Assembly: GCF_900220985.1 (NCBI RefSeq)
Contig: NZ_OCPC01000001.1
Coordinates: 1,466,836-1,530,835, forward strand
Length of the DNA stretch: 64,000 nucleotides
Direction: 5' to 3'
Source of the DNA: Parahoeflea halophila
GTDB lineage: Bacteria > Pseudomonadota > Alphaproteobacteria > Rhizobiales > Rhizobiaceae
Numbering within the stretch: position 1 is the first letter of the stretch; each line of letters begins with the position of its first letter. The notes beneath the pieces were generated by a model. That model was not told the DNA's origin. It was given only the letters and a program-made list of their open reading frames with translations, and made no database searches. The translations under genes were made by a program, and so were the position numbers. Positions 27,297 through 44,096 of this stretch are shown here, piece by piece.

Positions 27297-27905
27297 TCAG
27301 CGCCCGGCGGCGGCCTTGACGATGCGCTGCATGGCCAGCATGCCCGGGTCATCGAGGCCGATGCTCTTTTCGGCGAAGATACGGGCGCGGCCGATGGTTG
27401 CGGGTTTCTGGCGGAACTCTTCAAGCGCCTGATCGACGGCGTCCGCGGCGGCGGAGGCAACGGCTTCCTTGTCGTCCAGTCCGCTGGTGGCCCGGGCAAC
27501 CGCATCGAGGCTGTCGAGAACGGTCTTGCCGCCGATTTCGGCCTTGCCGCGCTCCTGCATCTTGTCGCGGGCACCCGCTACAAGATCCGATACCTGGGCA
27601 ACCTCGAACTCTGTCTGGCCCTTGAGCGCCTTGGCAGCCGACATCAAACCCGTCGCCATCAGCGTGCCGTAGGACGAGCCCGAGGATTTGGTAAAGGCTT
27701 GGGCGCATTGCATCAGCGCCATGCCCAGATCGTCCGGCAGGTCATCCTTCAACTGCGTGATGGCGCGCATGCCGCGGGTCAGAGTGACGCCGAGGTCGCC
27801 GTCACCCAGGGTTCCATCCGCGGCATTGAGTTCATCAAAATCACGCTCCATGGCAAGTGTCACGCGGTCTATCGCCTGCACAAGCGCCGCCTTGGAAAGG
27901 GTCAT
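27297..27905 (-). CDS. dhaL: Dihydroxyacetone kinase subunit DhaL-like
   Basis: A 202-residue ADP/ATP-binding subunit. The nucleotide/Mg site is the LGDGDLGVTLTRG segment near residue 33; SSGSSYGTLMATG is the other conserved loop. It transfers phosphate to the substrate bound covalently by DhaK. It overlaps the DhaK gene (ATG/TGA). No DhaM phosphotransferase protein is encoded nearby, so it may use ATP directly or a DhaM encoded elsewhere. In other bacteria DhaKL-like kinases also act on erythrulose or glyceraldehyde. Confidence 0.9.
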   Translation of the reverse strand: MTLSKAALVQAIDRVTLAMERDFDELNAADGTLGDGDLGVTLTRGMRAITQLKDDLPDDLGMALMQCAQAFTKSSGSSYGTLMATGLMSAAKALKGQTEFEVAQVSDLVAGARDKMQERGKAEIGGKTVLDSLDAVARATSGLDDKEAVASAAADAVDQALEEFRQKPATIGRARIFAEKSIGLDDPGMLAMQRIVKAAAGR

Positions 27906-28903
27906 CCAACCCTCCAGAAAGCGCAGTTGCAGGGAGCCTTCAGCAGGGCTTCAAGCTCATCGTCGAGCTTGCACAGCGTGAACGACACGCCCGACATTTC
28001 CATCGAGGTTGCATAGCGTCCGACAAGCGGCATGACGATGGTCGCGCCCGCAGCTTCAAGCCGCTGCTTCACCGTGCGGTAGAGAATGTAAAGCTCTTCG
28101 GGAGGCGTTGCGCCAAGGCTGTTGACCAGCACCGAAACCCGGTCGCCCGACGACAGCGGCGTCTCGGCGAGCAACCTGTCCATCATCTCCCCGGCGATTT
28201 CGTCGGCGGTACGCAGCTTGCCGCGCCACACCCCCGGTTCGCCGTGGATGCCCATGCCCATTTCCATCTCGTCATCGGCAATGTCGAAGGTCGGCTTGCC
28301 CGCCTGCGGCACCGTGCAGGACGACAGCGCCGCACCGATCGAGCGGCAGGCATCGGCAGCCTTTTGCGCCACCGCGGTCACGCCCTCAAGGTCGCGGCCT
28401 TCTTCCGCTGCGGCCCCGGCCAGCTTGAAGGCGTAGACCATACCGGCGACGCCACGGCGTTTTGCATGGTCTTCGGGCGGGGCGGATGCCACATCGTCGG
28501 TCAGAAGCACTGTCGTGCACTCGATATCGTCAAACTCGACAAGTTCGCCGGCCATGTCGAAATTCATGATGTCGCCGCCGTAATTTCCGTAAAGCCGCAG
28601 CACGCCCGCACCCTGATCGGCCGCGCGGATGGCGTCGGCCATCTGATCGGCGGAGGGAGAGGCAAACACATCGCCAATCGCGCAGGCGTCGAGCAGGCCT
28701 TCGCCGACATAACCGGTGAAGACGGGCAAGTGGCCCGACCCGCCGCCGGTGACAATGCCGACCTTGCCCGCCTTGGCCTTTTCGGCGCGCGCGACGACCT
28801 TGCCGCTGTCGCCGTGCATCCGGTAGAATTCCGGATGCGCCGCAACGAAGCCTTCCAGCATCTCGTCGACGTATTTTTCCGGATCGTTGAGTATCTTTTT
28901 CAT
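27902..28903 (-). CDS. dhaK: Dihydroxyacetone kinase subunit DhaK-like
   Basis: A 333-residue substrate-binding subunit. It has the GIVTGGGSGHLPVFTGYVG loop, NYGGDIMNFDMA and the active-site histidine in MGIHGEPG, which forms a hemiaminal with the ketose. GGGAGGA precedes ATG 28903. It follows the sugar ABC permease genes in the same direction, so kinase and transporter form one operon. The substrate is a short-chain ketose or aldose, not necessarily dihydroxyacetone. Confidence 0.92.
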   Translation of the reverse strand: MKKILNDPEKYVDEMLEGFVAAHPEFYRMHGDSGKVVARAEKAKAGKVGIVTGGGSGHLPVFTGYVGEGLLDACAIGDVFASPSADQMADAIRAADQGAGVLRLYGNYGGDIMNFDMAGELVEFDDIECTTVLLTDDVASAPPEDHAKRRGVAGMVYAFKLAGAAAEEGRDLEGVTAVAQKAADACRSIGAALSSCTVPQAGKPTFDIADDEMEMGMGIHGEPGVWRGKLRTADEIAGEMMDRLLAETPLSSGDRVSVLVNSLGATPPEELYILYRTVKQRLEAAGATIVMPLVGRYATSMEMSGVSFTLCKLDDELEALLKAPCNCAFWRVG

Positions 28904-28917
28904 GGCATCCTCCCGCT

Positions 28918-29937
28918 TCAGCTGGATTTCGTCGGTTTGGCCCGGGCGAAGAAACCGCGGCCGATTGCATTGCTGTTGATCACCATGACGAAGATCAGCA
29001 GCACGCCCCAAATAAGTTCACGGGCGAAATTGGAGACCTGCAGCATGTTCAGGCCGCTCGACAGGAACTGCATCGAAAGCACGGCAAGCACCACGCCAAT
29101 CACCCGGCCATAGCCGCCATAGGGATTGACGCCGCCAAGCACGGCGATGAGAACGGCAAGCAGAAGATAGCTCGAGCCATAATCCGCCTTTGCCGAGTTG
29201 GCGCGGCTCATGATAACAAGCCCTGCAGACGAGGCCAGCATGCCGGCGATCACGTAGACTTTCAGCAGCACCCGGTTGATGTTGACGGCTGCGTAGAGCG
29301 CTGCCAGGGGGTTCGCACCATACATGGTCACCCTGAGGCCGAAAGCCGTCTTGGTCAGCAGCAGATGCAGCCCGAGCGCCAGCAGTCCGAACAGGATCAG
29401 CGGAACCGGCACGCCCAGCAGGCTTTCATTGCCGATCCAGGCGACCGTCGCCGGGAACCCCATCACCGCACTGCCGCCGGTCATGGCAATGGCCAGGCCG
29501 GTGAAGACGAGGCCGGAGCCGAGCGTGGCCAGAATCGGCGGCAACCCGAAGAAGGCAACCAGCGAGCCGTTTACCAGACCCGCCGCGGCGCCAATGCACA
29601 GGGCCGCCGCCACTGCAAAACCGAGCCAGATCAGCGACGGGCCGGTAGCCATTTCCGGACCCGCGAGCTGTGTGAGGATCAGGGCCGCGACAACCGCGGA
29701 AAGGTTTGCGACGCCCACCACGGACAGGTCGATGCCGCCGGTCATCATCGTGATCGTCATCGCCAGGGCCAGAATTGCAAATTCCGGGAACTGGAATGCC
29801 ATCGACGTGAGGTTCTGCCCCGACAGGAACCGGTCCGGCGACAGCAGCGACATGAACACAAATACCGCGCAGGCGATGATCAGCAAGCGAAACTCGGGCG
29901 ACCGTGTAAAACTCATTTTCTGGCCTTGTACTGTCAT
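28918..29937 (-). CDS. Sugar ABC transporter permease (RbsC/LsrC-like), subunit 2
   Basis: A 339-residue permease with eight to ten hydrophobic segments. Family motifs are MMTGGIDLSVVGVANLSAVV, PPILATLGSGLVFTGLA, and the cytoplasmic loop TKTAFGLRVTMYGANPLAAL that contacts the ATPase. ATG 29937 is used. It pairs with the permease encoded just upstream as a heterodimer, like LsrC/LsrD. Confidence 0.9.
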   Translation of the reverse strand: MTVQGQKMSFTRSPEFRLLIIACAVFVFMSLLSPDRFLSGQNLTSMAFQFPEFAILALAMTITMMTGGIDLSVVGVANLSAVVAALILTQLAGPEMATGPSLIWLGFAVAAALCIGAAAGLVNGSLVAFFGLPPILATLGSGLVFTGLAIAMTGGSAVMGFPATVAWIGNESLLGVPVPLILFGLLALGLHLLLTKTAFGLRVTMYGANPLAALYAAVNINRVLLKVYVIAGMLASSAGLVIMSRANSAKADYGSSYLLLAVLIAVLGGVNPYGGYGRVIGVVLAVLSMQFLSSGLNMLQVSNFARELIWGVLLIFVMVINSNAIGRGFFARAKPTKSS

Positions 29938-29944
29938 CACATCC

Positions 29945-30946
29945 TCATCCGGCTCGCGTAGCCGCGCGCTTGGCACGATAGGCCGGAACACCCGTTCCAA
30001 TCAGGATCAGGAGACCAATGGCGACCGACTGCCAGGTTGTGGGAATCCCGACCACGATCAGGCTGTTCTGCACGATCACGATCAGCGCAACGCCTAGCAG
30101 GGTGCCTGTCAAAGTACCGTAGCCGCCGATCAGCCGGGCCCCGCCCAACACCACCGCCGCAATCACCGACAGTTCAAGCCCCACCAGCGAGAACGGATCG
30201 GCCATGCGGCCCATGGAACCATGGATGATACCGGCAAGACCTGCGAGGGCACCAACATAGACATAGACAAAGAACTGCGTTGCCTTGACATTGATGCCGA
30301 GCCGCCGCGCACTCTCGGTCGATCCGCCGATCGCATAGATCGAACGCCCCAGCATCGTCTTGTGCAGGATGAACCAGGTCAGCACGATCACCGCAACAAG
30401 TGCCGCAAGCGCCCAGGGGAACGAATAGAAACTGCCAGCTTCTGTGGTGCCGCGCGCGATCACCCCGCGGGAAAAATCCCGCATTTCCGGCGGCAGGGCG
30501 GAAATCCGCTGGGAACCGATGAAGGTGAGCAGAAACCCGCGAAACACCGACAATGTGCCCAGGGTCACGATCAGTGTGGGCAGGCCAAAAAAGGCGATAA
30601 ACACACCGTTGATTGCGCCAAGCAGCGCGCCGATCGCCGTCGATATCAGGAAGATCACCGGCCACGGCATGTCAGGCCACACCGCCAGCGAGAAGACCGT
30701 CGCCGAATACATGGCAAACACGGCAATGGCGGTAAAACTTACATCAATACCGCCCGACACCAGAACAAGCATGGCGCCAATCGCCAGAATGCCGATGACG
30801 ATCGATGCCCGCAACAGATCCGACAGGGTGGTGACGGATAAGAACAGCGGATCAGACAGCGTTGCAGCAACGCAAAACAGCACGATAACGCCGGAAACGA
30901 GCGTTTCATTGCGCGTCCAGAAATCCTGCGGCACCCACTTGTTCAT
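29945..30946 (-). CDS. Sugar ABC transporter permease (RbsC/LsrD-like), subunit 1
   Basis: A 333-residue permease with eight or more membrane segments. Motifs are VLVSGGIDVSFTAIAVFAMY, PTLIVTLGTLSVFRGFLL and the coupling loop KTMLGRSIYAIGGSTESARR. The start overlaps the end of the ATPase gene. Two distinct permeases in one operon match the Lsr and some rhizobial sugar importers, rather than RbsC homodimers. Confidence 0.9.
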   Translation of the reverse strand: MNKWVPQDFWTRNETLVSGVIVLFCVAATLSDPLFLSVTTLSDLLRASIVIGILAIGAMLVLVSGGIDVSFTAIAVFAMYSATVFSLAVWPDMPWPVIFLISTAIGALLGAINGVFIAFFGLPTLIVTLGTLSVFRGFLLTFIGSQRISALPPEMRDFSRGVIARGTTEAGSFYSFPWALAALVAVIVLTWFILHKTMLGRSIYAIGGSTESARRLGINVKATQFFVYVYVGALAGLAGIIHGSMGRMADPFSLVGLELSVIAAVVLGGARLIGGYGTLTGTLLGVALIVIVQNSLIVVGIPTTWQSVAIGLLILIGTGVPAYRAKRAATRAG

Positions 30947-32442
30947 GACGCCAACCTATGCGCGAGTTCTTCTTCCGTCACCGAGTTTCCTGCAACCTCG
31001 TCGGTGACCCTGCCATCGCGCATCACCAGAATGCGGTGAGAGGTTGCGAGCAATTCCGGCAGGTCATCGGAAATCACGATGACGCCAATGCCTTCCGCCG
31101 ACAGATCGCGGATGATGCTGTGAATGTCCGCCTTTGACCCGACATCCACCCCGACGCTCGGGCCATTGAGAATGAGCACCCGTGGTGCCCGCGACAGCCA
31201 GCGTGCAAGCACGACGCGCTGCTGGTTTCCGCCCGACAGGGATTGCACCGGCGCGTCGATGTCCGGGGCCTTGACCTTCAACCGCTTAAGCCAGCCGGCC
31301 GCCTCTTCGATCATCGCGGAAGCTTTCAGAAATCCGCCACTTCCCGAGTGCTTGTCGAGACGGCCTATCGCAACGTTGCGGACAATCGACTGGCTGAGGA
31401 ACAGCCCTTCGGTCAGGCGGTCTTCGGGGACATAGCCGATGCCGGCATAACAGGCTGCAATCGGGTCGCCGGTTGCCACGTCGCGGCCATCGACCTGGAT
31501 CGAGCCGCGATCGGGGGCGACCAGACCGAACAGCGCCTTGGCCAGCGACGTGCGCCCACTGCCCAGGAGTCCGGTGATCCCCAGGACTTCGCCCGCATTG
31601 AGCTCGAAATTTATGTCCGCGAAAGAGCCTTGCTTGGCCAGGTTGTCGACGCGCATCAGCGTCTTGGCGCCGGCTGGAACCGCGCTCGGCGGCGTCTCCG
31701 GCATCTCGCGGCCGGTCATGTGATAGGCGAGCGACTGGGTGTCGAATTCGGACGCCGGACCTTCCGCCACCTTCTTGCCGTTGCGCAGCACGACAACCTT
31801 CTCCGAGACTTCCAGCACTTCGGCGAGTTTGTGGCTAACGAAGATCACCGCGACTCCGTCTTCCTTCAGGCGTCGAATGATGCCGAGAAGCCGACGCACT
31901 TCCTTTTCGGTAAGCGCGGTCGTCGGCTCGTCCATGATGATCAGCTTGGCCTGGGAGGCGAGCGCCCGGCAAATGGCAACCAGCTGCTTGTGGGCAACCG
32001 GCAGACTTTCGACCCGCACATCGAGGTCTATCTTCACGCCGATGCGGTCGAGCGCCTCGCGGGCGATCTCGCGCGCCTTGTCGCGCTCGTACAGGCGCCT
32101 GTGCGCAGACAATTGCGTCGCAAAGGCAATGTTTTCGTAAACGCTGAGGTTCGGAAACAGCGAAAAATCCTGAAAGATGACCATGACGCCGGCCGCTGCC
32201 GAGATCCGCGGATTGAGCACCGGGCGGTCCTTGCCGCCGATCCGGATCCGGCCCTCGGTCAGTTTCTCGACGCCGGAAATGATCTTGATAAGGGTAGACT
32301 TGCCCGACCCGTTCTCACCGGCGAGACACACGGCCTCACCCGGCTGAACCGTGAAATCCACACCGTCCAGCGCGGTAACCCCCGCATAGCGTTTGGTGAT
32401 TCCCGCAAGGTCGATGAATGCGTGTTCGCCCACGTCCGACAT
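30943..32442 (-). CDS. Sugar ABC transporter ATP-binding protein, tandem domains (RbsA/LsrA-like)
   Basis: A 499-residue protein with two ATPase domains. Domain 1 (about 1-240) has Walker A GENGSGKSTLIKI and Walker B LIIMDEPTTALTEKE, with a weak signature region (LPVAHKQLVAI). Domain 2 (about 260-499) has GLLGSGRTSLAKAL, signature LSGGNQQRVVLARWL and a Walker B region VLILNGPSVGVDVGSK, in which the usual D-E pair is N-G. Domain 2 may therefore bind but not hydrolyse ATP. It energises the two permeases next to it. Confidence 0.9.
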   Translation of the reverse strand: MSDVGEHAFIDLAGITKRYAGVTALDGVDFTVQPGEAVCLAGENGSGKSTLIKIISGVEKLTEGRIRIGGKDRPVLNPRISAAAGVMVIFQDFSLFPNLSVYENIAFATQLSAHRRLYERDKAREIAREALDRIGVKIDLDVRVESLPVAHKQLVAICRALASQAKLIIMDEPTTALTEKEVRRLLGIIRRLKEDGVAVIFVSHKLAEVLEVSEKVVVLRNGKKVAEGPASEFDTQSLAYHMTGREMPETPPSAVPAGAKTLMRVDNLAKQGSFADINFELNAGEVLGITGLLGSGRTSLAKALFGLVAPDRGSIQVDGRDVATGDPIAACYAGIGYVPEDRLTEGLFLSQSIVRNVAIGRLDKHSGSGGFLKASAMIEEAAGWLKRLKVKAPDIDAPVQSLSGGNQQRVVLARWLSRAPRVLILNGPSVGVDVGSKADIHSIIRDLSAEGIGVIVISDDLPELLATSHRILVMRDGRVTDEVAGNSVTEEELAHRLAS

Positions 32443-32475
32443 GCCGACTCGTTACTTTTATGAGACTAGACAATT

Positions 32476-32501
32476 GGAGGGCGGCCTGGCAGCCGCCCTC
32501 C
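32476..32501 (-). other. Perfect stem-loop after sugar-binding protein gene
   Basis: GGAGGGCGGC-CTGGCA-GCCGCCCTCC, a 10-bp perfect stem in the 75-bp gap between the binding-protein gene (upstream on this strand) and the ATPase gene. No T-tract. It likely protects the binding-protein message or partly attenuates the operon. Confidence 0.6.
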
Positions 32502-32517
32502 CGTGACAGCTACATGA

Positions 32518-33504
32518 TCAGAACGGATAGTCCGCCATGTTGTCCTTGTTCACGTTGACCCATGCCTGGCCGTAGATGACCTTGCCGTCGAGAGTGACCT
32601 TCTCGTAGCCGGGCAATCCCAGATCCATGCCATCGGCGACAGTCTCGCCTTCCATGACCATGACCGCGAGCTTGTTCATGGCTTCGCCGGCAACCGCCGG
32701 ATCCCAAAACCCGATGCCATCGACAGCGCCGGTTTCCAGATACTGCCCAGCAATGGACGGCAGCGAGGTGCCGAAGACGCAGATGTCGTCTTCCATGCCG
32801 CGCTCTTCGACAGCACGGCCGATACCGGCCACATCGGTGGAGGCGGAACCTTGCATGCCCTTGATATTGGGGTATGCACGCAGAACTTCCTGCGCCTTGG
32901 TGTAGGCCTTCTCGGCATCGTCGAAGGTTTCGTTCTTGTCGCCGACCAGCACCATGTCGGGATAGTTGGCCTTCTGGTATGCGATGCCGCCGTCAACCCA
33001 CTGGTTGTGGGTCTGCGAGGTCAGCGAACCGACATAAACGGCATATTCACCCTTGCCGCCCATGCACTGCGCGAGCTGCTCCATGAGGTTGGCGCCGAAG
33101 TCTTCGTTGACGAAGGCTTCAAGATCGTAATTCGTATTCTCCTGCGCTGCAGCCTCATGCGTGATCACGGTGATGCCCGAGTCCATTGCGCGCTTGAGCA
33201 CCGGTTCGAGAGCTTCCGGCGACATCGGCACGACTGCAAGCGCATCGACGCCTTGCGCGATCATGTCTTCGATCAGCGCTGCCTGCTGCTGCGGATCTGC
33301 CTGCGCGGGCCCGACCTGGTAAGCATTGTTGCCGGATTCTTCGGCGAACTTCTTCACGCCCTCTTCCATCCGGTTGAACCACTGAATTCCAGCGATTTTC
33401 ACCACCGTGGCAATCTGCTTGCTGCCGCCGTGGCTCGCAGCGAAGGCTGAAAGAGCCGTCCCGGCCACGAGTGCGCCTGCGAGGAGTATCGTATGTTTTT
33501 TCAT
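32518..33504 (-). CDS. Sugar ABC transporter substrate-binding protein (LsrB/RhaS-like)
   Basis: A 328-residue periplasmic binding protein with a Sec signal peptide ([20 protein letters not shown], cleavage near AFA). By eye it lines up with Lsr[58 protein letters not shown] and the C-terminus [13 protein letters not shown]. Several positions that contact autoinducer-2 in LsrB appear changed (HEAA for the WDSD region, TH for DQ, ASTD for the PDA region), so the ligand is probably another small sugar or polyol. It is the first gene of the operon, divergent from the SorC-family regulator. Confidence 0.88.
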
Positions 33505-33630
33505 GGTCTGTTCCTACCTTGATCCGCTGCTGCGGATACCTCCCTGAGGCCCGAAACAACGGGCCGTGCCTCCATAGGTTTCGGTGCTGCACACCTGACC
33601 CGACGGCGATATGGACCGTCGTATCGCGAT

Positions 33631-33647
33631 ATGCAACAGTTGTGCAT
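33631..33647. promoter_or_regulatory. Candidate SorC-family operator
   Basis: ATGCA-ACAGTTG-TGCAT is a 5-bp perfect inverted repeat in the 227-bp divergent region between the sugar-binding protein and the SorC-type regulator. A further TGCAC lies just right of it and a GACGG-N9-CCGTC hairpin to the left (33602-33620). Assignment to the regulator is by position only. Confidence 0.4.
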
Positions 33648-33731
33648 TGACTGCACGTATGTGACTATATATCGGTGAAAGTCGCGGTCAAGCCATTTAT
33701 GCCGACCAACAGTTGGAGGTGGGAAACAGCC

Positions 33732-34706
33732 ATGCATCCGGGTAAGCGTCAGGCAGACGATGACATCGTACAGGCGGCTTGGCTCTATTATGTGGGGACC
33801 ATGAGCCAGCAGGAAGTCAGTGAGCGCCTGGGCATTTCCCGCTTCAAGGTCCTGCGCATGCTGGCCGATGCGCGCGAGCAGGGCCTGGTCCGGATATCCG
33901 TCGAACACCGGACATCACGAACACTCGCGCTTGCCGACCGCCTGGCCGATGCCTTTGGTCTCAAGGAGGTGCAAGTCGCCCCCACGCCAAGCGACAGCCT
34001 GGACAGCGCCTATGGCCGCACTGCGGTGGGGATGCTGGGTGCGGCCTATCTCAAGCGCATTGCTGCATCCGAAACGCCGTTGACGATCGGAGTGGGCTGG
34101 GGGCGCACTCTTTCGGCAATGGCCGACCATGTGACAGCGGTCACCAATCCCAACCTGACCTTCGTGTCGCTCATGGGGTCTGTCACCCAGGCCACGCACA
34201 CCGCACCCGGCGATGTCTGTGTACGCCTGGCTGCACAGACTGGCGGTCGTGCCTTGCTGCTGCCGGCTCCATTCGTCACAGACAGCGCCGAGGCCTGCGA
34301 AGTGGTCAAGTCACAGCGGCTGGTCAAGGCCGCGTTGACAGAGGCAGGCAAGGCAGATCACGCCTTGATGAGTGTCGGCGAATGCCGTGATGGCGCCATC
34401 CTGTTCGAAAGCGATATTTTTAGCGAGGAACAGTTCCAGCAATTGCGGCAGGCCGATGTGGTCGGCGATTGCTGCGGCGTGTTTTTCAAGGCCGACGGCT
34501 CCATCGCCGACATCGAGTTGAACAGGAGTACACCGTGCGTCCAGCCGCGGGAATTTGCCGGCATGGATGCCGTTCTGCTCGCCAGCGGCCAGGGTAAATG
34601 CACCGCTACACTGGCCGTGTTGCGCGCAGGCTTCGCCAAACGGCTGATGGTGGATGAAGCGCTTGGAACGCTCCTCCTGGAGCGCATTGACGAGGGAAAT
34701 GGCTGA
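33732..34706 (+). CDS. SorC/DeoR-type sugar-responsive regulator
   Basis: A 324-residue SorC-family (LsrR/DeoR-like) regulator. An N-terminal helix-turn-helix (AAWLYYVGTMSQQEVSERLG, ISRFKVLRMLADAREQGLV) precedes a sugar-phosphate-binding isomerase-like domain (TIGVGWGRTLSAMADHV). Such proteins respond to phosphorylated sugars. ATG 33732 is preferred over an upstream GTG because MHPGKRQADDD fits the family. Its stop overlaps the epimerase start. It probably controls both the transporter/kinase operon and its own catabolic operon. Confidence 0.88.
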   Translation: MHPGKRQADDDIVQAAWLYYVGTMSQQEVSERLGISRFKVLRMLADAREQGLVRISVEHRTSRTLALADRLADAFGLKEVQVAPTPSDSLDSAYGRTAVGMLGAAYLKRIAASETPLTIGVGWGRTLSAMADHVTAVTNPNLTFVSLMGSVTQATHTAPGDVCVRLAAQTGGRALLLPAPFVTDSAEACEVVKSQRLVKAALTEAGKADHALMSVGECRDGAILFESDIFSEEQFQQLRQADVVGDCCGVFFKADGSIADIELNRSTPCVQPREFAGMDAVLLASGQGKCTATLAVLRAGFAKRLMVDEALGTLLLERIDEGNG

Positions 34707-35554
34707 TGCAGGGTTTTGGTGTCCATACCAGCATGTGGACCATGTCATGGGACCCTGCGGGGTGTGAGAAAGCTGTCTCGAAGGCATCCTCCTATGGCGT
34801 GGACTTCCTCGAGATCGCATTGCTCGATCCGCCATCGGTGGATGCGGAACACAGCCGCAAGACGCTTGAAGCGCACAATATGCGCTCGGTGTGTTCTCTC
34901 GGACTTCCCGAGCAGGTCTGGGCCTCTCGCAATCCCGATGGTGCGGTCGATTTTCTCAAGATCGCGCTCGACAAATGCGCCGCGATCGGCAGCGAAGCCC
35001 TGTCAGGCGTGATTTATGGCGGCATCGGCGAACGCACCGGCAAGCCGCCGACCCGGCATGAGCTGGACAATGTCGCCTCGGCGCTGACGCGGGCCGCAGC
35101 CCACGCCAGGAGCCTCGGCCTTCAGCTCGGCATAGAGCCGGTCAACCGCTACGAAACCCACCTTCTGAACACGGGCTGGCAGGCCGTCGACATGATCGAG
35201 CGGATCGGGGCGGACAACATCTTCGTTCATCTCGACACCTACCACATGAACATCGAGGAGAAAGGCATCGCCCAGGGCATCATCGATGCGCGCGAGCACC
35301 TGAAATACATCCACCTTTCCGAATCCGACCGCGGAACCCCCGGCGCTGGCACCATTGCCTGGGACGAGATCTTCGCCGCCCTGCGCGCGGTGAATTTTCA
35401 GGGGGGATTGGCAATGGAAAGCTTTATCGACATGCCACCGGAAATCGCCTTCGGGCTTTCGGTCTGGCGTCCCGTGGCGTCCGGCGAAGCCGAAGTGATG
35501 GAAAACGGCCTGCCGTTCCTGCGCAACAAAGCTCGGCAGTATGGATTGATTTGA
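34706..35554 (+). CDS. D-tagatose/D-psicose 3-epimerase family TIM-barrel protein
   Basis: A 282-residue ketose 3-epimerase-like enzyme. The Mn-binding residues fall at a constant offset from those of Agrobacterium psicose epimerase: E144 (GIEPVNRYETH), D177 (FVHLDTYHMNIEE), H203 (YIHLSESDRGTPGAG) and E238 (AMESF). The N-terminus GVHTSMWTMSWD is typical. The family epimerises ketoses at C3 and accepts 1-deoxyketoses and pentuloses. It overlaps the regulator and the E1 alpha gene. The physiological sugar is unknown. Confidence 0.88.
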   Translation: MQGFGVHTSMWTMSWDPAGCEKAVSKASSYGVDFLEIALLDPPSVDAEHSRKTLEAHNMRSVCSLGLPEQVWASRNPDGAVDFLKIALDKCAAIGSEALSGVIYGGIGERTGKPPTRHELDNVASALTRAAAHARSLGLQLGIEPVNRYETHLLNTGWQAVDMIERIGADNIFVHLDTYHMNIEEKGIAQGIIDAREHLKYIHLSESDRGTPGAGTIAWDEIFAALRAVNFQGGLAMESFIDMPPEIAFGLSVWRPVASGEAEVMENGLPFLRNKARQYGLI

Positions 35555-36591
35555 TGACTGAAAAGAACAGCATGCCCGGCAGCAATTCAGGTCTGCCGGA
35601 TCTTTATCGCCATATGCGCCGCGTGCGCACATTCGAGGAGCGCGTTGGCGAGTTGTTCGTCCGCGGCAAGTCGGCGGGGTCGATGCTGCATCTGTCCGTC
35701 GGCGAGGAAAGTGCCGCCGTGGGCGTGTGCTCGCACATGCATGACGGTGACACATTCACCACCCATCACCGCGGCCATGGCATCTTTCTCGCCCGCGGGG
35801 CGGATCCCGCACGCATGATGGCGGAAATCGCCGGCAAGGAGACCGGATATTGCCATGGCAAGGGCGGTTCTATGCACATTGCCGACATGGGGCTTGGCCA
35901 TCTGGGTGCCAACGCCATCGTCGGCGGCGGCATTCCCGCCGTGGTCGGTGCGGGCCTGGCGGCGCGCAACGGCAAGAAGGATGTCGTCTCGCTGGCCTTC
36001 TTCGGCGACGGTGCGACGGGGCAAGGCATCCTCTACGAAAGCATGAACATGGCGGCGCTGTGGAGACTGCCGGTGATGTTTGTCTGCATCAACAATCAGT
36101 ACGGCATGGGCACACGCATCGACCAGGCGACAGCCAATCCGCGGCTGCATGAGCGGGCCGAGGCCTTCGGACTTGTCGCCCGCACGGTGGACGGGCTGGA
36201 GGTTGAGGAAGTGGCCGATGCCGCAGCAGAGCTGATTGCCGGCGCACGGGCCGGCAAGCCCGCGTTCCTGGCAATCGAGTGTTACCGCTTTTATGGCCAC
36301 GCCAGAAAGGACAAATCGCCCTATCGCGCCGAGGCCGAGGAAGCAGAAGGACGCAACAAGGATCCGGTCTTGCGCGCCCGCACCAAGCTCATTGAATCCG
36401 GCATCATGGCGGAAACCGATCTTGACGCCATGGATGCCGAAATCGCCCAGGAAATGGACGCCACCATCGACTTCGCCGTGTCCGGAAACGAGCCGCAGAT
36501 GAGCTCCATGTTCCGCGATGTCTACGCGCCTGAGGAAGCAGAGCCGGAACCGGTTCGCACGCGCATTGAACGTATTCTGGCGCGGCAGTAA
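35554..36591 (+). CDS. acoA: Acetoin/pyruvate dehydrogenase-type E1 component, alpha subunit
   Basis: A 345-residue thiamine-diphosphate enzyme subunit. The TPP motif runs GDGATGQG...NMAALWRLPVMFVCINN, and CHGKGGSMHIAD and the RTFEERVGELF N-terminus are typical of AcoA and PdhA. The length and E1 alpha/E1 beta/E2 gene order fit the acetoin dehydrogenase group. It decarboxylates a 2-oxoacid or cleaves an acyloin, passing the acyl group to the E2 lipoate. The start overlaps the epimerase stop. Acetoin may not be the natural substrate given the sugar genes around it. Confidence 0.88.
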   Translation: MTEKNSMPGSNSGLPDLYRHMRRVRTFEERVGELFVRGKSAGSMLHLSVGEESAAVGVCSHMHDGDTFTTHHRGHGIFLARGADPARMMAEIAGKETGYCHGKGGSMHIADMGLGHLGANAIVGGGIPAVVGAGLAARNGKKDVVSLAFFGDGATGQGILYESMNMAALWRLPVMFVCINNQYGMGTRIDQATANPRLHERAEAFGLVARTVDGLEVEEVADAAAELIAGARAGKPAFLAIECYRFYGHARKDKSPYRAEAEEAEGRNKDPVLRARTKLIESGIMAETDLDAMDAEIAQEMDATIDFAVSGNEPQMSSMFRDVYAPEEAEPEPVRTRIERILARQ

Positions 36592-36602
36592 CGGGGATGG
36601 CC

Positions 36603-37580
36603 ATGATCGAGACAACCTATCGCGGTGCCTTGCGTCAGGCGCTGACGGACGCCATGCAGGAAAATGAAGCCGTCGTCATCATGGGCGAGGAAGTCGGCCG
36701 CTATGGCGGCGCCTACGGCGTGACCAAGGGATTGATCGACGAATTCGGCGAGGACCGGGTCATCGACACGCCGATTTCCGAGGCCGCGATCGTCGGCGCA
36801 GCAGTGGGCGCAGCAATGGCCGGGCTGCGGCCGGTGGCGGAGCTGATGTATGTCGATTTCATCGGCATGACCATGGACCAGCTTGCCAACCAGGCCGCCA
36901 AGATCCGCTACATGTTCGGCGGCCAGATCGGCGTGCCGATGATCTTGCGCACCCAGGGCGGCACCGGCCGCTCGGCGGGCGCACAGCACAGCCAGAGCCT
37001 GGAAGCCTATGTGATGCACACCCCGGGGCTTAGGCTCGCCATGCCGGCGACGGTCGAGGATGCCTATCACCTGCTGCGCCAGGCCATGAAGCAGCCCGAT
37101 CCGGTCGTGTTCATCGAACACAAGGGCCTCTACACGATGAAGGGCGAGCTGGACACGAGCGCCGAGCCCGCCGCCTGGGGCAAGGCGCGGGTGATGCGCG
37201 AAGGCTCCGATGTGGTCATCGTCAGCTATTCGCGCCAGCTCCATCATGCGCTTGCCGCAGCCGATACGCTGGAGAAGGAAAACGGAATTCAGGCTGCTGT
37301 TGTCGACTTGCGGACACTCAATCCGATCGACTTCGCCACCATCCGCCCGCTCGTCGAACAGGCAGGCCGGGCAATGGTCGTCTCTGAAGGCGTGATGACA
37401 GCGGGTGTGGCGGCCGAGCTTGCGGCGCGCATCACCGAGGAATGTTTCGACTATCTCGAAGACCCGGTGGTCCGGGTGGCGGGCGAGGATATTCCGATCT
37501 CGGTGTCGCCGCTGCTCGAGAAGCACTCAGTCCCGACGCCGGAATTCATAACCGAAGTTGCAAGAATGATGCTGAAATGA
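36603..37580 (+). CDS. acoB: Acetoin/pyruvate dehydrogenase-type E1 component, beta subunit
   Basis: A 325-residue E1 beta subunit. Family segments are GEEVGRYGGAYGVTKGL, DTPISEAAIVGAAVGAAMAG, RTQGGTGRSAGAQHSQSLEA and the C-terminal swivel region LRTLNPIDFATI. ATG 36603 is preferred because GGGG lies about seven bases upstream; ATG 36597 is also possible. The stop overlaps the E2 start (ATGA). With the alpha subunit it forms the E1 heterotetramer. Confidence 0.88.
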   Translation: MIETTYRGALRQALTDAMQENEAVVIMGEEVGRYGGAYGVTKGLIDEFGEDRVIDTPISEAAIVGAAVGAAMAGLRPVAELMYVDFIGMTMDQLANQAAKIRYMFGGQIGVPMILRTQGGTGRSAGAQHSQSLEAYVMHTPGLRLAMPATVEDAYHLLRQAMKQPDPVVFIEHKGLYTMKGELDTSAEPAAWGKARVMREGSDVVIVSYSRQLHHALAAADTLEKENGIQAAVVDLRTLNPIDFATIRPLVEQAGRAMVVSEGVMTAGVAAELAARITEECFDYLEDPVVRVAGEDIPISVSPLLEKHSVPTPEFITEVARMMLK

Positions 37581-38830
37581 CCACAGTGACGCAGGTCAAG
37601 CTCCCAATGCCGCGCCTCGGCGAGACGATGGAGCAGGGAACCATATCAACCTGGCTGGTCAAGACCGGCGAAACCTTCGCGCGGGGCGACCCGCTGCTGG
37701 AGCTGGAAACCGACAAGACGCTGGTGGAATACCCCGCCCTTGGCGCTGGCAAGCTGATCGAGATGCTGGTCGGTCCCGGCGATGTCGTCGATGTCGGTGC
37801 ACCGATTGCCATCATCGAAACCGCGGAGGCCTGGGATGGCATCGCCGACAGCCCAGCCAGCGAAGAACCGGCGGAAAAGGCGCCGGCTGCGAGCCTGCCG
37901 GACACCAGCTCAGATGCGGACGCGAGGCCGGAGGCCGGCCAGCGGCGGGCGACGCCGCTTGCCAGGCGGCTGGCGCGCGAGGGCGGCGTGGATCTTTCCG
38001 TTCTTCAAGGCACCGGCCGGCGCGGCCGCATCGAGGCGCGGGATGTCCGTTCCGCGATCGAGGCATCGACACACACGGACACACAGCCGGGGACGCCAGT
38101 TGCGGCGCACGCCAATGCGGCAGCCGATTCCGGCCCCGTCCTGTTCATTCACGGGTTTGCCGGCCTTGGCTCCAACTGGGAGAAGCTGCGGGCAAGGCTG
38201 CAGAAGGTAGGCTTGAAAACCGAAGCGCCGGACATGCCCGGCCATGGCCGCAACGCCGCGGAAGCCAACAGCGTCGAGGAATGTGTCGCATGGCTTGGCG
38301 ACTGGCTGAGCGCGCAGGACCGGCCCGTGCATCTGGTCGGCCATTCATTCGGTGCCCATGTGGCGGCGCTGGCCGCGAACCGGACGCGCTCGAAAGTCAG
38401 CCGCCTGACCCTGGTTGCGCCTGCGGGCTGCGGCCACGACATCAATGGCGGCTTTGTCCACGGCATGGCACACACGCGCACGGCGGGTGAGCTGCTCCAC
38501 CTGCTCCGGCTGCTGGGCCCGGAAGCCTCCCGCCTGCCCGCGGATGCAGTCGGGACCATGGCCACCGAACTGGCCAAGGGTCGGCTCCAGACGCTCGCCG
38601 GGGTCATTGCGCGCGGCGATACACAGCTGATCGACACGATTGCAGCACTTGGCGCGCTGAGCGAAGATGTTCCGGTCCGGGCGATCTTCGGCAGTGCCGA
38701 CAGCATCATCGCCAAAGAACATATGTTCAACATGCCGCCACGGGTCGCATCGCACATCGTCCCCACGGGGCATATGCCGCATTGGGATGATCCAGCCCTG
38801 CTGGAAAGCTTGATCCGCGGCAGCAACTGA
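37577..38830 (+). CDS. acoC: E2 acyltransferase with alpha/beta-hydrolase domain (AcoC-like)
   Basis: A 417-residue fusion. Residues about 5-80 are a lipoyl domain with lipoyl-lysine K47 (LELETDKTLVEY). A Pro/Ala-rich linker follows, then a peripheral-subunit-binding domain (PLARRLAREGGVDLSVLQGT) and, from about residue 185, an alpha/beta-hydrolase (VLFIHGFAGLGSNWEKL, nucleophile GHSFGAH, His in PTGHMPHWDDP). This lay-out is that of AcoC of acetoin dehydrogenase, rather than a PdhC-type catalytic domain. No E3 gene follows; the complex must borrow one. It would deliver an acyl group to CoA. Confidence 0.88.
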   Translation: MTTVTQVKLPMPRLGETMEQGTISTWLVKTGETFARGDPLLELETDKTLVEYPALGAGKLIEMLVGPGDVVDVGAPIAIIETAEAWDGIADSPASEEPAEKAPAASLPDTSSDADARPEAGQRRATPLARRLAREGGVDLSVLQGTGRRGRIEARDVRSAIEASTHTDTQPGTPVAAHANAAADSGPVLFIHGFAGLGSNWEKLRARLQKVGLKTEAPDMPGHGRNAAEANSVEECVAWLGDWLSAQDRPVHLVGHSFGAHVAALAANRTRSKVSRLTLVAPAGCGHDINGGFVHGMAHTRTAGELLHLLRLLGPEASRLPADAVGTMATELAKGRLQTLAGVIARGDTQLIDTIAALGALSEDVPVRAIFGSADSIIAKEHMFNMPPRVASHIVPTGHMPHWDDPALLESLIRGSN

Positions 38831-38859
38831 CACGGCAGCGAACCATCGGGAGGGAAAAG

Positions 38860-40353
38860 ATGGCCTATTTTCTGGCAGCCGACGGCGGCACCGAAAGCCT
38901 GCGGGCACGCATCTACGATCTGCAGGGAAACTGTGTCGCCTCTCATGCCGAACCCTATGAAACCGTTTTCTCTGCCGGGACCCGGGCCGAGCAACGGCCT
39001 GAAGACTGGTGGACGAGCCTGTGCAAGGCAACGCGCGCCTGCATGGCCGAATCCGGACTGAAGCCCGACCAGATCGAAGCCATGGCCTATGCGACCACCA
39101 GCTGTACCGTCGTCGCACTGGATGACGACGGCAATCCGCTCAGGCCTGCGCTCTTGTGGATGGATGTCCGCGCGTCGAGTGAGGCCGAGGCGGTGCTGGC
39201 GACGGGCGATGACCGGCTCAAGCTCAACAGCAATGGCCGCGGACCGGTGTCCGCCGAGTGGATGATCCCCAAGGCCTTGTGGATCAAGCGCAACGAGCCA
39301 GAGATCTACGACAAGGCGGCGACCATCTGCGAATACCAGGACTACCTGACGCTTCGGCTGACCGGCGAACGCTGCGCGGCGCTCAACAATGCCGGTCTGC
39401 GCTGGCACTATGCCAATCGCGACGGTGGCTGGGCGAAATCACTGGTTACGGCGCTCGGCATGCCGGACCTGATCGAGAAATGGCCATCGCGGGTTGCCGC
39501 ACCCGGTGAAGTAGTCGGCAATCTCACCGCCCAGGCCGCAGAAGCGCTGGGCCTGACCACTGCGACAAAACTGGTGCAGGGCGGCGCCGACGCATTGATC
39601 GGCATGATCGGGCTCGGGGTCGCCAGGCCAGGGCAATTGTGCCTGATAACCGGCTCTTCGCACCTGCAGTTCGGCGTCACCGAAAAGCCGTTCCACGCCG
39701 AAGGCATGTGGGGCGCCTATGCCGACATCGTCTATCCGGATCTCTACATCGTCGAAGGCGGCCAGACATCGACAGGCTCGATCATCAACTGGCTGAAGCG
39801 GTTTACCGGCGGCGAGCTGGATTTCGAAGCCCTCAATCAGAAAGCGGCGCTGCTGCCGCCGGGATCGGAAGGTCTCGTCATCCAGGACCACTTCCAGGGC
39901 AACCGGACGCCCTATACCGACGCCCTGTCGCGCGGCGCGGTCACCGGTCTCACGCTGGCGCATGAACCGCACCACGTGTTCCGCGCCATCATGGAGGGCA
40001 TCTCCTTTGGCACCCGGACCATCCTCGATGCCTTTTCCAGAGGCGGGTACCAAGCCACAGAGATGGTGGCCGGTGGCGGCGCGACCAACTCGGCCCTGTG
40101 GATGCAGATCCATGCCGACACCGCCGGAATTCCGGTTCGCATTCCAGCCTCGGCGGACGGTCCGTCCCTGGGCTCGGCCATTCTCGCGGCCCACGGGGCC
40201 GGGCATTTTGCGACGATTGACGAAGGCATCCAGGCCATGGTCAAGCCCGGACGGCTTGTCGAACCGGACCCGGCCGCGATGCGCGCCTATGACGAGATCT
40301 ACCAGAAATATCTGGCGCTTTATCCCGCGCTCAAGGGTGCGCTCGAGGGCTGA
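38860..40353 (+). CDS. FGGY-family carbohydrate kinase
   Basis: A 497-residue FGGY kinase. Features are an N-terminal phosphate loop FLAADGGTESLRARIYD, LLWMDVRASSEAE, TICEYQDYLTLRLTGE and the ATP-binding VAGGGATNSALWMQIHAD. The Gly-Gly-Thr variant DGGTES replaces the usual DxGTxS, as in some ribulokinase- or LsrK-like members. GGGAGG precedes ATG 38860. It is the last gene of the catabolic operon. The substrate is a ketose or polyol, perhaps the epimerase product. Confidence 0.88.
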   Translation: MAYFLAADGGTESLRARIYDLQGNCVASHAEPYETVFSAGTRAEQRPEDWWTSLCKATRACMAESGLKPDQIEAMAYATTSCTVVALDDDGNPLRPALLWMDVRASSEAEAVLATGDDRLKLNSNGRGPVSAEWMIPKALWIKRNEPEIYDKAATICEYQDYLTLRLTGERCAALNNAGLRWHYANRDGGWAKSLVTALGMPDLIEKWPSRVAAPGEVVGNLTAQAAEALGLTTATKLVQGGADALIGMIGLGVARPGQLCLITGSSHLQFGVTEKPFHAEGMWGAYADIVYPDLYIVEGGQTSTGSIINWLKRFTGGELDFEALNQKAALLPPGSEGLVIQDHFQGNRTPYTDALSRGAVTGLTLAHEPHHVFRAIMEGISFGTRTILDAFSRGGYQATEMVAGGGATNSALWMQIHADTAGIPVRIPASADGPSLGSAILAAHGAGHFATIDEGIQAMVKPGRLVEPDPAAMRAYDEIYQKYLALYPALKGALEG

Positions 40354-42184: not shown

Positions 42185-43531
42185 TCATTGCGACAGGTAG
42201 GCGGGCAGCCACAGCGTGATGTCGGGCCAGAGGATGACCGTCGCCAGCCCGACCAGCTGCAGGACCACAAAGGGAATGATGCCGCGATAGATGGTGCCTA
42301 TGCCGACGCCTTCGGGGGCAATGCCTCGCAGGTAGAACAAGGCATAGCCAAACGGCGGGGTCAGAAACGAAGTCTGCAAGTTGACCGACAGGGCAACGGC
42401 AAACCAGATCAGCGTCTGTTCCGGGGTCAGGCCGAAATCGAGCGCGGCGACAATCGGCGCGACGATGGGGACGACCACCAGGGTGATCTCCACCCATTCC
42501 AGGAAGAAGCCGAGAACGAACACCAGCAGCATGATCGTCAGAAGTACCAAATAGGGCCGCTCGCCATGCACGGAAAAGGCGTCGATGATCATCTGGTCGC
42601 CGCCGAGCTTGCGGAAAATGACGCTGAAGATGGTGGCGCCGATCATCACGAAGATGATCATCGCCGTGGTCTTGGTGGTGTCGAGCAGGGCGCTGGCGAA
42701 ACCGGCAAGGTCGAGCTGTCGGGAGAGCATCGCCAGGATCATGGCGCCGGCAGCGCCGATCGCCGCCGATTCGGTCGGGGTGGCGACGCCGGTGACGATG
42801 GTGCCGAGCACCGAGACAATCAGGATGATTGGCGCGAGCAGGTCGCGGGTCAGGTCGAGCACCACTTTCCACAACGGATCGGTACCGGCCTGCTCGCGCG
42901 AGGCGGGCATGCGCGAGGGCTGGAACAGGGCCACGAAGATCAGATAGGCGAGATAAAGGCTTCCCAGCAGCAGACCCGGCCCGACGGCGGCCATGAAAAG
43001 ATCCCCGACCGAGACCCGCATCTGGTCGCCCAACACGATCAGCATGATGCTTGGCGGTATCAGGATTCCCAGGGTGCCGCTGGCGGCGATGAGCCCGGTG
43101 GAGATTTTCGGATCGTAGCCGTTCTTGAGCATTGTCGGCAGCGCCATCATGCCCATCAGGACAACGGAAGCGCCGATGATGCCGGTCGAGGCCGCCATGA
43201 CGATGCCGATGATCGCAACCGCGAAGGCATAGCCGCCGGGCATGCCGCGAAACAGCGCCGCCAGCGAGCGCAGCAAGCGTTGCGCGACGCCGGAACGTTC
43301 CAGCATCAGGCCCATGAAGACGAACAGCGGAATCGCGATCAACAGCCAGTTGGTCAAGACGCCCGAATAGATGCGCGACACGCCCAGCGACAGAAACAGC
43401 ATCGGCACGTCGCCGAAAAAAGCAAAGATCAGGCCGATCCCGGCGAGCACGAAGGCAACCGAATATCCGGTGAAAATGCCGGCCATCAGCCCGACGAGCA
43501 TCAGGATCGGCAGCAGGTAGGCGTCAGTCAT
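42185..43531 (-). CDS. dctM: TRAP transporter large permease subunit (DctM)
   Basis: A 448-residue membrane protein with about twelve hydrophobic segments. DctM signatures are PLFVFMGLMLERSGVAQRLL, STGIIGASVVLMGMMALPTM and ASGTLGILIPPSIMLIVLGD. It uses an ion gradient to import a carboxylate delivered by DctP. ATG 43531 overlaps the DctQ stop. It is the last gene of the operon on this strand. Confidence 0.9.
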   Translation of the reverse strand: MTDAYLLPILMLVGLMAGIFTGYSVAFVLAGIGLIFAFFGDVPMLFLSLGVSRIYSGVLTNWLLIAIPLFVFMGLMLERSGVAQRLLRSLAALFRGMPGGYAFAVAIIGIVMAASTGIIGASVVLMGMMALPTMLKNGYDPKISTGLIAASGTLGILIPPSIMLIVLGDQMRVSVGDLFMAAVGPGLLLGSLYLAYLIFVALFQPSRMPASREQAGTDPLWKVVLDLTRDLLAPIILIVSVLGTIVTGVATPTESAAIGAAGAMILAMLSRQLDLAGFASALLDTTKTTAMIIFVMIGATIFSVIFRKLGGDQMIIDAFSVHGERPYLVLLTIMLLVFVLGFFLEWVEITLVVVPIVAPIVAALDFGLTPEQTLIWFAVALSVNLQTSFLTPPFGYALFYLRGIAPEGVGIGTIYRGIIPFVVLQLVGLATVILWPDITLWLPAYLSQ

Positions 43532-44096
43532 GTGGCTGTTCACTGTTCTTGAGGGTTGGGCGCATCAATTGCCTTGCGGTCTCGATCGCCCGGAGGATCG
43601 CGCACAGGCCGAGCAGGGAAAACGACAACGGGATCATCGCCTTGATCACCCAGCGGTCGAGCATGCCGCCATAGGTCGAGCCCTCGCCGGTGGCGAAAGC
43701 CTTGACGGCGAAGCTGTAGCCGTACCAGGCGATGACGATGCAGAACGGCAGCAGAAACACCAGGTCGCCGAACAGACGGAACGCCAGTTGCGTGCGCGGT
43801 GACAGCGACGACGAAAACACGTCGACGGAAACATGGCTGTTGTCACGGAATGCAAGCACGCCGCCAAACAGCACCATCAGCGAGAAGATATGCCATTGCA
43901 GGTCCAAAAGGGTGTTGACCGTGATCGCCTTGCCGAAGAGCGGCAGCGGGTCGGACCATTCCGCCAGCAGGTTGATGCCGTATTGTGCCGCCAGAACCGT
44001 CAGGCAGACGCTGACGATCAACGGCACGACAAGCCACCCGACCAGCCTGCCCGGCAGCGTGCACATGTCCTGCAACCGTTCGAGGATATTGCTCAT
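43524..44096 (-). CDS. dctQ: TRAP transporter small permease subunit (DctQ)
   Basis: A 190-residue protein with four hydrophobic segments. The typical DctQ pattern is present: a first TM (LVGWLVVPLIVSVCLTVLAA), LQWHIFSLMVLFGGVLAFRD, then NSHVSVDVFSSSLSPRTQLA. It bridges DctP docking and DctM. Separated from the dctP gene by a 123-bp gap holding a stem-loop. Confidence 0.88.
   Translation of the reverse strand: MSNILERLQDMCTLPGRLVGWLVVPLIVSVCLTVLAAQYGINLLAEWSDPLPLFGKAITVNTLLDLQWHIFSLMVLFGGVLAFRDNSHVSVDVFSSSLSPRTQLAFRLFGDLVFLLPFCIVIAWYGYSFAVKAFATGEGSTYGGMLDRWVIKAMIPLSFSLLGLCAILRAIETARQLMRPTLKNSEQPHD

Follow-up and report, generated by a model that had tools for sequence, protein, structure and literature searches.

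The window analysed here is a 64,000-nucleotide stretch of the Parahoeflea halophila genome (contig NZ_OCPC01000001.1, positions 1,466,836 to 1,530,835; assembly of 4.19 Mb in 15 contigs, 99.99% complete), and its central part, positions 27297-40353, carries a divergent gene unit that may import and degrade a ketopentose. Profile searches of the open reading frames of the window confirmed a 12-gene set flanking a SorC/DeoR-type regulator, in agreement with the first-pass annotation of this DNA, which had described two divergent units around such a regulator and an FGGY kinase among their genes. The leftward unit, from 33504 to 27297, encodes the solute-binding protein (SBP), the ATPase, permeases A and B, DhaK and DhaL, in that order, and the rightward unit, from 33732 to 40353, the regulator, a ketose 3-epimerase, E1 alpha, E1 beta, E2 and the FGGY kinase, with several of the latter genes touching or overlapping (Table 1). 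The ATPase had been termed "tandem"; two ABC domains are indeed present, but they belong to a single 499-aa gene. Rfam and tRNA scans across the window gave no matches.

Table 1. Features of the divergent unit and its flank (positions are those of the window)
Feature	Position	Strand	Remarks
Aldo/keto reductase, 359 aa	26111-27190	+	Pfam Aldo_ket_red 225.7 bits; convergent with dhaL; in 16 of 80 loci
DhaL (Dak2 domain)	27297-27905	-	Pfam 119.8 bits; NCBIfam DhaL 94.5, below cut-off 138.3
DhaK (Dak1 domain)	27902-28903	-	Pfam 413.6 bits; DhaK equivalog 397.3, below cut-off 406.25; GIHGE motif
ABC permease B (BPD_transp_2)	28918-29937	-	
ABC permease A (BPD_transp_2)	29945-30946	-	
ABC ATPase, two nucleotide-binding domains, sugar (CUT2) type	30943-32442	-	
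Solute-binding protein	32518-33504	-	D-ribulose-type pocket K36 W42 E117 H166 D195 S222
Conserved operator/promoter-like block	33640-33671	+	TTGTGCATTGACTGCACGTATGTGACTATATA; discernible in all 16 regions compared
SorC/DeoR-type regulator	33732-34706	+	Pfam Sugar-bind 182 bits; open frame from 33675
Ketose 3-epimerase (xylose-isomerase-like TIM barrel)	34706-35554	+	475.7 bits to PDB 7dz2/7dz5
E1 alpha, thiamine diphosphate (ThDP)-dependent	35554-36591	+	GDG...NN motif
E1 beta	36597-37580	+	
E2, AcoC type	37574-38830	+	Lipoyl (ETDKT, lysine 48), E3-binding and alpha/beta hydrolase domains
FGGY kinase, closest to xylulokinase model	38860-40353	+	TIGR01312 XylB 302.3, below cut-off 380.25

The best solved relatives of the binding protein, whose structure model has a mean pLDDT (predicted local distance difference test) of 76.9, are 5bra, 9i1m and 3d02, with LsrB behind them. 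The structure 9i1m is that of AauA with D-ribulose, bound with a Kd of 1.98 µM, and the contact passage of that report names Lys37 (C3-OH), Trp43 (ring), Glu118 (C2, C3), His167 (C2, C4), Glu196 and Ser223 (both C5), and gives no contact to C1 (PMC12307932). HMMER alignment places an identical residue at five of these six positions of the window protein, while at the sixth, a C5-OH contact, Glu196 is replaced by D195. All six residues are the same in the 13 aligned proteins of this importer type, here called importer A (the window plus 12 of the 15 importer-A cluster members; L010, L014 and L023, and later L192 and L194, lie outside the alignment). Since these proteins are 80-92% identical to that of the window, they probably share one ligand. 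More distant SBPs from Sinorhizobium and Chelatococcus retain Glu at the fifth pocket position.

The importer had initially been labelled LsrB-type, a designation that the pocket does not bear out. The binding-site passage of PMC6166536 lists K35, D116, D166, Q167, P220 and A222 as the autoinducer-2 (AI-2) residues of LsrB, with D166 and A222 reported as required. An alignment to 1tjy (HMMER, read by eye) shows that the window protein keeps only the lysine, with E, T, H, S and S at the remaining positions, in contrast to its nearly complete AauA-like pocket. AI-2 is thus made unlikely as the ligand, and because the D-ribulose contacts of AauA are nearly all kept and the AI-2 residues mostly lost, the imported compound is probably a ketopentose, with or without a hydroxyl at C1. 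As no C1-hydroxyl contact appears in the AauA passage, a 1-deoxy sugar could fit the same pocket. These comparisons bear on an improbable alternative in which AI-2 (4,5-dihydroxy-2,3-pentanedione) or a reduced form of it would be the substrate, the reductase would make a 1-deoxyketopentose from it, and epimerase, kinase and E1/E2 would replace LsrG and LsrF. Such a scheme would accommodate the Lsr-like importer fold, the SorC regulator, the FGGY kinase and the reductase, and its products, acetyl-CoA and triose phosphate, would parallel those of lsr; it is contradicted by the loss of five of the six AI-2 residues, the two required ones included, and by a kinase scoring 302 bits with XylB versus 195 with LsrK.

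The epimerase matches the "D-tagatose 3-epimerase" structures 7dz2/7dz5 across its full length (residues 1-282), and remains under the NCBIfam cut-off for D-psicose 3-epimerase (160.9 versus 300). Tagatose 3-epimerases can turn ribulose into xylulose and back, and they also take 1-deoxyketoses as substrates. Proteins with 60-80% identity to the epimerase were found in 176 of 193 matching plasmid records. For the FGGY kinase, XylB is the best of the curated models, although its cut-off is not reached, followed by ribulokinase (284.2 bits) and, well short of its cut-off of 528, the AI-2 kinase LsrK (194.8). XylB is known to phosphorylate 1-deoxy-D-xylulose. An RbsD/FucU-family gene adjoins the FGGY gene in three other loci (L073, 14759-15202; L077, 6778-7221; L008, 5313-5765; assigned by Pfam in L073 and by clustering in the others), a hint that the kinase may use a ring-forming sugar.

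The E2 protein combines lipoyl, E3-binding and alpha/beta hydrolase domains (Pfam), the acetoin-type set, and the AcoC-like character proposed for it at the outset is thereby supported. Its score against the AcoC equivalog, 304.3, falls just under the cut-off of 307, which a member from the second locus type described below (type B) passes with 416.8. Both signature motifs are present, GxSxG in the E2 hydrolase domain and the ThDP motif in E1 alpha; the ThDP, ETDKT, GxSxG and (in DhaK) GIHGE motifs presumably carry their customary meanings. There is no E3 among the genes of the unit, and three dihydrolipoamide dehydrogenases scoring over the curated cut-off are encoded elsewhere in the same genome.

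Compared with the Paracoccus acetoin enzyme, the E1 subunits reach 46% (alpha) and 41% (beta) identity. In a small tree of alpha subunits, E1 alpha appears as its own clade, with the Paracoccus AcoA nearest among three comparison sequences, the others being two further E1s of the same genome. Thirty-six E1 alpha positions are fixed or almost fixed across 86 members and rare in nine other E1s; some of these 36 count only because the comparison sequences have gaps there. E1 beta has 31 family-specific positions, judged from 83 members. Family-specific positions include R125-S126 of E1 beta, which we take to lie near the catalytic-histidine motif. E1 alpha (numbered from the TTG at 35551) has His72 in 86 of 86 members, where eight of the nine others have Thr, and a loop, GHAR-x-DKSPYR, with R252, K255 and S256 in all 86; the Paracoccus aco operon and an unannotated Caballeronia record have GHFEGD-AQTY here instead. 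The loop presumably borders the active-site channel, as assumed from human pyruvate dehydrogenase (PDH), and its basic character may weakly favour an anionic, i.e., phosphorylated, substrate. Other E1/E2 sets with a possible sugar connection were also encountered: on a Priestia plasmid (L144, 306-6990), E1/E2/E3 genes are divergent from glucitol/sorbitol phosphotransferase system genes, and on a Clostridioides difficile plasmid record (L143, 3510-9430) a "sugar-binding transcriptional regulator" lies directly 5' of E1/E2/E3 genes. The type B E2 region of Sinorhizobium meliloti Ak57 (L133, 10985-12303) carries two separate annotations, one as a hypothetical protein and one as an alpha/beta hydrolase.

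One might suppose, rather, that an importer of D-ribulose or some other ketose, the 3-epimerase and the kinase feed the pentose phosphate pathway and that E1/E2 is an ordinary dehydrogenase for pyruvate or acetoin, recruited to burn whichever of the two arises downstream. The relationship of the family to AcoABC and PDH is compatible with this, as is the statement, in the growth passages of PMC12307932, that Rbl-dependent growth on D-ribulose needs importer and kinase. We consider it rather unlikely, given the separate E1 alpha clade in the small tree, the many family-specific positions of both E1 subunits, the near-strict co-occurrence of E1 alpha with FGGY (see below), and a genome already provided with three E3 genes and another E1 alpha (38% identity) that we read as PDH-like.

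To follow the unit across genomes, a species-genome collection was scanned with E1 alpha, yielding at least 538 stretches at E ≤ 1e-3, not all of the same subfamily, the best 80 of which were kept; gene presence was scored by homology with identity thresholds, as these GC-rich loci made GC3 gene calling unreliable. E1 alpha, E1 beta, E2 and FGGY were detected in 80, 78, 75 and 73 loci, respectively, with all four in 73, and the seven loci with an incomplete core are records of 4.3-12.8 kb ending at a contig end. These four genes are a recurring core. The neighbourhood search suggested earlier for this gene set was positive: in ten loci every one of the 12 window genes has a homologue, in the same order, and the reductase is there as well. 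Because the full set recurs in order in ten of 80 loci, along with a conserved intergenic block, the association is far beyond chance, and the original view of the locus as one functional unit is upheld. Owners of the cassette include the alphaproteobacteria Marivita, Tateyamaria, Azospirillum, Sinorhizobium, Paracoccus and Aureimonas.

The family, moreover, falls into two types by importer, with the E1/E2/FGGY core common to both, a division absent from the first-pass annotation. Twenty of the 80 loci are importer-A-like (defined by SBP, epimerase, DhaK or reductase) and 57 are type B (another binding protein), one of these being both, and four are neither. Type B loci run SorC, SBP, ATPase, one permease, E1 alpha, E1 beta, E2, CMD, FGGY, SDR1 and SDR2, where the CMD-family gene and the two short-chain dehydrogenase/reductase (SDR) genes occur in 47, 45 and 50 of the 57, respectively. 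SDR1 is found in none of the 19 loci that are A-like only, and that of L061 is closest, among solved structures, to galactitol and polyol dehydrogenases. In L193 (12720-16449) and L075 (3002-6722), SorC-E1-E2 has as neighbours a further sugar importer and a different ketose 3-epimerase (44-46% identical), possibly a third entry route to the core.

The coupling of E1 alpha to FGGY was examined in 346 genomes of the host's family, with up to four FGGY and six E1 candidates scored per genome. E1 alpha (E ≤ 1e-90) occurs in 20, the host included, and FGGY (E ≤ 1e-120) in 21, of which one (G604) has only a 42% relative and the other 20 have at least 65% identity. Nineteen of these 20 FGGY genomes also contain E1 alpha, where about one would be expected under independence. 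The exceptions are G020, with FGGY beside a CMD gene and no E1 within the stretch fetched, and G539, in which fragments of a 53% FGGY directly precede E1 alpha. The two halves are at separate loci in G761 (importer, reductase, DhaKL, epimerase and FGGY versus SorC-E1-E2).

The regulator probably starts at 33732, 3' of the promoter-like block, rather than at 33675; it scores 173.4 bits with the DeoR and 113.3 with the LsrR model, both under the cut-off. A block of the form TTGTGCA-TTGAC-TGCAC ... TATATA was seen by eye in all SorC-SBP intergenic regions aligned (15 loci and the window). The 8-mer AATGCACA is common to 14 of the 16, the other two (L027 and L192) retaining TGTGC and TGCAC half-sites, and L016, L023, L064 and L073 have a degenerate right-hand half-site. 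The block of the window overlaps elements that resemble, by eye, -35 and -10 boxes, and it is the sole exact match within the window. A search of the whole genome with its 17-base core, two of the positions being free, gave a single exact hit, at this block, plus one hit with a single mismatch and seven more with two mismatches; at up to two mismatches the reversed control produced six altogether. With its single exact genomic match, the core suggests that the regulator probably serves mainly the divergent pair, and from the conserved block we infer that both units form one regulon. At one mismatch or fewer the core is missing from the MtnK-MtnA region of the same genome (L118); among 11 other such regions, one-mismatch matches occur in L121 and L124. 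Type B loci have a different motif: the importer-A core is found in none of 55 regions and the 9-mer ACAAATGTA in 41.

The kinase that recurs across the loci is FGGY and not DhaKL (73 versus 16 of 80 loci, the latter counted by DhaK), so that cleavage probably comes after phosphorylation. Cleavage of an acyloin to acetyl-CoA and a triose, as first proposed, is in our judgement still the most economical reading, but the kinase step is now placed before it and would fall to FGGY rather than, after the split, to DhaKL. DhaKL would be accessory. The reductase, which the earlier inspection had missed, belongs to the unit by co-occurrence, all 16 loci that have it also having DhaK or the importer-A binding protein. 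Only one of the readings considered makes DhaKL essential, namely a branched ketol such as apulose, which E1/E2 would convert to glycolyl-CoA and dihydroxyacetone, with DhaKL then forming dihydroxyacetone phosphate (DHAP). ThDP enzymes are indeed known in apiose breakdown; nevertheless, the epimerase would find no C3 hydrogen, DhaK is infrequent and the pocket is of the linear-ketopentose type, so that this possibility appears very remote.

A further association, also new relative to the first-pass annotation, concerns MtnK-MtnA-aldolase trios, which, according to the sections of PMC6079011 and PMC10986504 on this route, convert 5-deoxyribose and methylthioribose into an aldehyde and DHAP; "acetoin" is a term absent from PMC6079011. 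Such genes lie near 11 of the 20 importer-A-like loci, in four arrangements. In L027, epimerase and E1 alpha are separated by a class II aldolase together with MtnK (475 bits, cut-off 275) and MtnA (428, cut-off 279). Seven genomes (L119-L121, L123 and L129-L131: three Marivita, Tateyamaria, Roseobacter and two metagenome-assembled genomes) have the order MtnK, MtnA, a second SorC-like gene, aldolase, reductase and cluster, with an importer 5' of MtnK in six of the seven stretches fetched. L073 and L077 have MtnK, MtnA and a fused aldolase/dehydrogenase after FGGY, separated from it by the mutarotase-family gene (RbsD/FucU by Pfam in L073), and L126 has MtnK, MtnA and a fused aldolase beside epimerase and SorC, 2.2 kb from the end of L062 on the same contig. 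For L009, L014, L021, L036, L066 and L074, MtnA is on another contig or far away, and none was found for L064; L023 and L044 were examined at the locus only. On the type B side, MtnA and a fused aldolase adjoin L068, and L008 is flanked by an aldolase and a probable MtnK, one on each side. Proximity in several arrangements is more telling than presence, although related genomes are not independent. A link from methylthioadenosine to isoprenoids through a RuBisCO-like protein was also considered and dropped, there being no match in the genome of the window (E ≤ 1e-10).

Taken together, these data lead us to propose, tentatively, that the unit imports and degrades a ketopentose, the likeliest being a 1-deoxy-ketopentose of the 1-deoxy-D-ribulose/1-deoxy-D-xylulose type, to acetyl-CoA and glyceraldehyde 3-phosphate. 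The binding protein, with its D-ribulose-type pocket, would capture the sugar and the ABC importer carry it inside, after which the 3-epimerase would convert the ribulo to the xylulo configuration and the xylulokinase-like FGGY protein would phosphorylate C5 to give 1-deoxy-D-xylulose 5-phosphate or an isomer. E1/E2, as a relative of acetoin dehydrogenase and with a housekeeping E3, would attack the C2 carbonyl, break the C2-C3 bond and pass the acetyl group via lipoate to CoA, yielding acetyl-CoA, glyceraldehyde 3-phosphate and NADH. The SorC regulator may sense a phosphorylated intermediate and control both operons through the intergenic block. Any triose left unphosphorylated (glyceraldehyde or dihydroxyacetone) might be rescued by DhaKL, and the reductase might supply or remove a carbonyl form, roles that do not fit neatly into the scheme; type B, with a different importer and two SDRs, might enter the same core from a deoxy-polyol. 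Degradation of a 1-deoxyketopentose in this manner would close without any further enzyme, whereas a sugar hydroxylated at C1 would call for a fate for glycolyl-CoA. With somewhat greater reserve, we also suggest a new branch of deoxy-sugar catabolism, allied with 5-deoxypentose salvage and served by a dedicated importer, in which a CoA-dependent oxidative, acyloin-cleaving complex acts on a phosphorylated ketopentose. Its central reaction would be 1-deoxyxylulose 5-phosphate synthase-like chemistry in reverse (1-deoxyxylulose 5-phosphate + CoA + NAD to acetyl-CoA + glyceraldehyde 3-phosphate), and it is put forward with the same reserve.

Several observations weigh against this proposal. Its substrate is a prediction from sequence, and the predicted pocket suits plain D-ribulose at least equally well, AauA and Rbl being D-ribulose systems. 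The epimerase is 72-73% identical to Sinorhizobium and Chelatococcus enzymes adjoining a class II aldolase and, in Chelatococcus, also an annotated FGGY kinase; an epimerase-aldolase route needs a C1 hydroxyl, and with such close relatives the epimerase alone is no pointer to a 1-deoxy sugar. Given the modest E1 identity to the Paracoccus enzyme, acetyl is a candidate for the transferred group, and His72 of E1 alpha could equally suit a hydroxymethyl donor. The basic-loop argument is weakened by the presence of K at position 252 in four and R at 255 in three of the nine comparison E1s, one of which (Aminobacter, L141) adjoins an E2 annotated as acetoin-type. DhaKL would be superfluous if the FGGY route yields glyceraldehyde 3-phosphate directly. 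The cluster is also patchy, with E1 alpha in none of 17 same-genus genomes and three of 61 relatives (E ≤ 1e-100, own genome included), and in three of 398 genomes of a phylum sample (E ≤ 1e-95, own genome again included). Finally, in the window genome MtnA, MtnK and the fused aldolase/dehydrogenase lie on contig C11, away from the unit, the separate L027 aldolase finds no match there (E ≤ 1e-20 across the genome), and MtnA is so common (82 of 199 family genomes) that its presence says little.

The main rival to the 1-deoxy model is plain D-ribulose, or another ketopentose hydroxylated at C1, from which importer, 3-epimerase and FGGY would yield D-xylulose 5-phosphate, with E1/E2 as a CoA-dependent oxidative ketolase converting xylulose 5-phosphate, CoA and NAD to glycolyl-CoA and glyceraldehyde 3-phosphate. 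It would account directly for the match of the pocket to the AauA complex, for a kinase closest to XylB and ribulokinase and for an epimerase whose solved relatives are named as ordinary-ketose epimerases. On this view, however, the nearly strict coupling of E1/E2 to FGGY seems needless, since xylulose 5-phosphate already feeds the pentose phosphate pathway; the E2 is of the acetoin type; and no glycolyl-CoA or glycolate gene was identified among the recurrent neighbours, where no dedicated search was made. We regard it as unlikely, though likelier than the other alternatives.

Comparison with described systems places the 1-deoxyketopentose model in context. The AauA/Rbl D-ribulose uptake systems of enterohaemorrhagic Escherichia coli and Citrobacter rodentium share the binding-protein family and pocket, an ABC sugar importer and, in Rbl, an FGGY kinase, but the passages describing them mention no 3-epimerase, E1/E2, DhaKL or reductase and have D-ribulose phosphorylated and entering the pentose phosphate pathway (PMC12307932). 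The Paracoccus denitrificans acetoin operon has E1 alpha/beta and an AcoC-type E2 and, like type B, CMD and SDR genes; the window unit adds a sugar importer, an FGGY kinase and a SorC regulator and lacks the NAD-kinase-like gene, the butanediol dehydrogenase and the sigma-54 regulator of that operon. The DHAP shunt of 5-deoxyribose salvage shares the deoxypentose theme and the proximity described above, and its set (MtnK, MtnA, class II aldolase) is complete elsewhere in the genome rather than within the unit; it proceeds by aldol cleavage of a ketose 1-phosphate and yields no acyl-CoA (PMC6079011, PMC10986504). The lsr system resembles the unit in importer fold, SorC-type regulator, FGGY kinase and predicted products, and differs in having LsrF and LsrG, which the unit lacks, and the AI-2 residues of LsrB, which its binding protein does not keep; the kinase of the unit scores closer to XylB than to LsrK. 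Finally, LacI-SBP-ABC-epimerase-(FGGY)-class II aldolase clusters of Sinorhizobium and Chelatococcus (L132, 4382-12058; L135, 4407-12008, the latter with an annotated FGGY) have the same importer family and close epimerases, but an aldolase in place of E1/E2 and SBPs only about 40% identical; the Sinorhizobium record lists no gene at the place of the kinase.

Beside the cluster, an 828-aa LigD-type DNA ligase and an adjoining Ku (21432-24802) form a bacterial non-homologous end joining pair. Beyond the FGGY gene, on the minus strand, lies a TRAP transporter (DctM, DctQ and DctP; 42185-45254), whose DctM matches the 2,3-diketo-L-gulonate YiaN model far under its cut-off.

Neither a named pathway nor the same gene combination was found in the openly licensed PMC literature (subscription papers fall outside this scope), in line with the earlier statement that none was known. 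The parts belong to known families; their combination seems new to the literature searched, as does the predicted splitting of a sugar phosphate by a lipoate complex of the acyloin type. We know of no catabolic fate for 1-deoxyketopentoses, nor was one found in that literature, and the pathway, if true, would provide it. It would furthermore extend lipoate-linked acyloin complexes to sugar phosphates and correct the "autoinducer-2"-type and generic dehydrogenase labels on relatives, while, thanks to the binding-protein result, a few ketopentoses would suffice for a direct test of the substrate. Finally, it would assign a function to the E1/E2-FGGY cassette of various marine and soil alphaproteobacteria.

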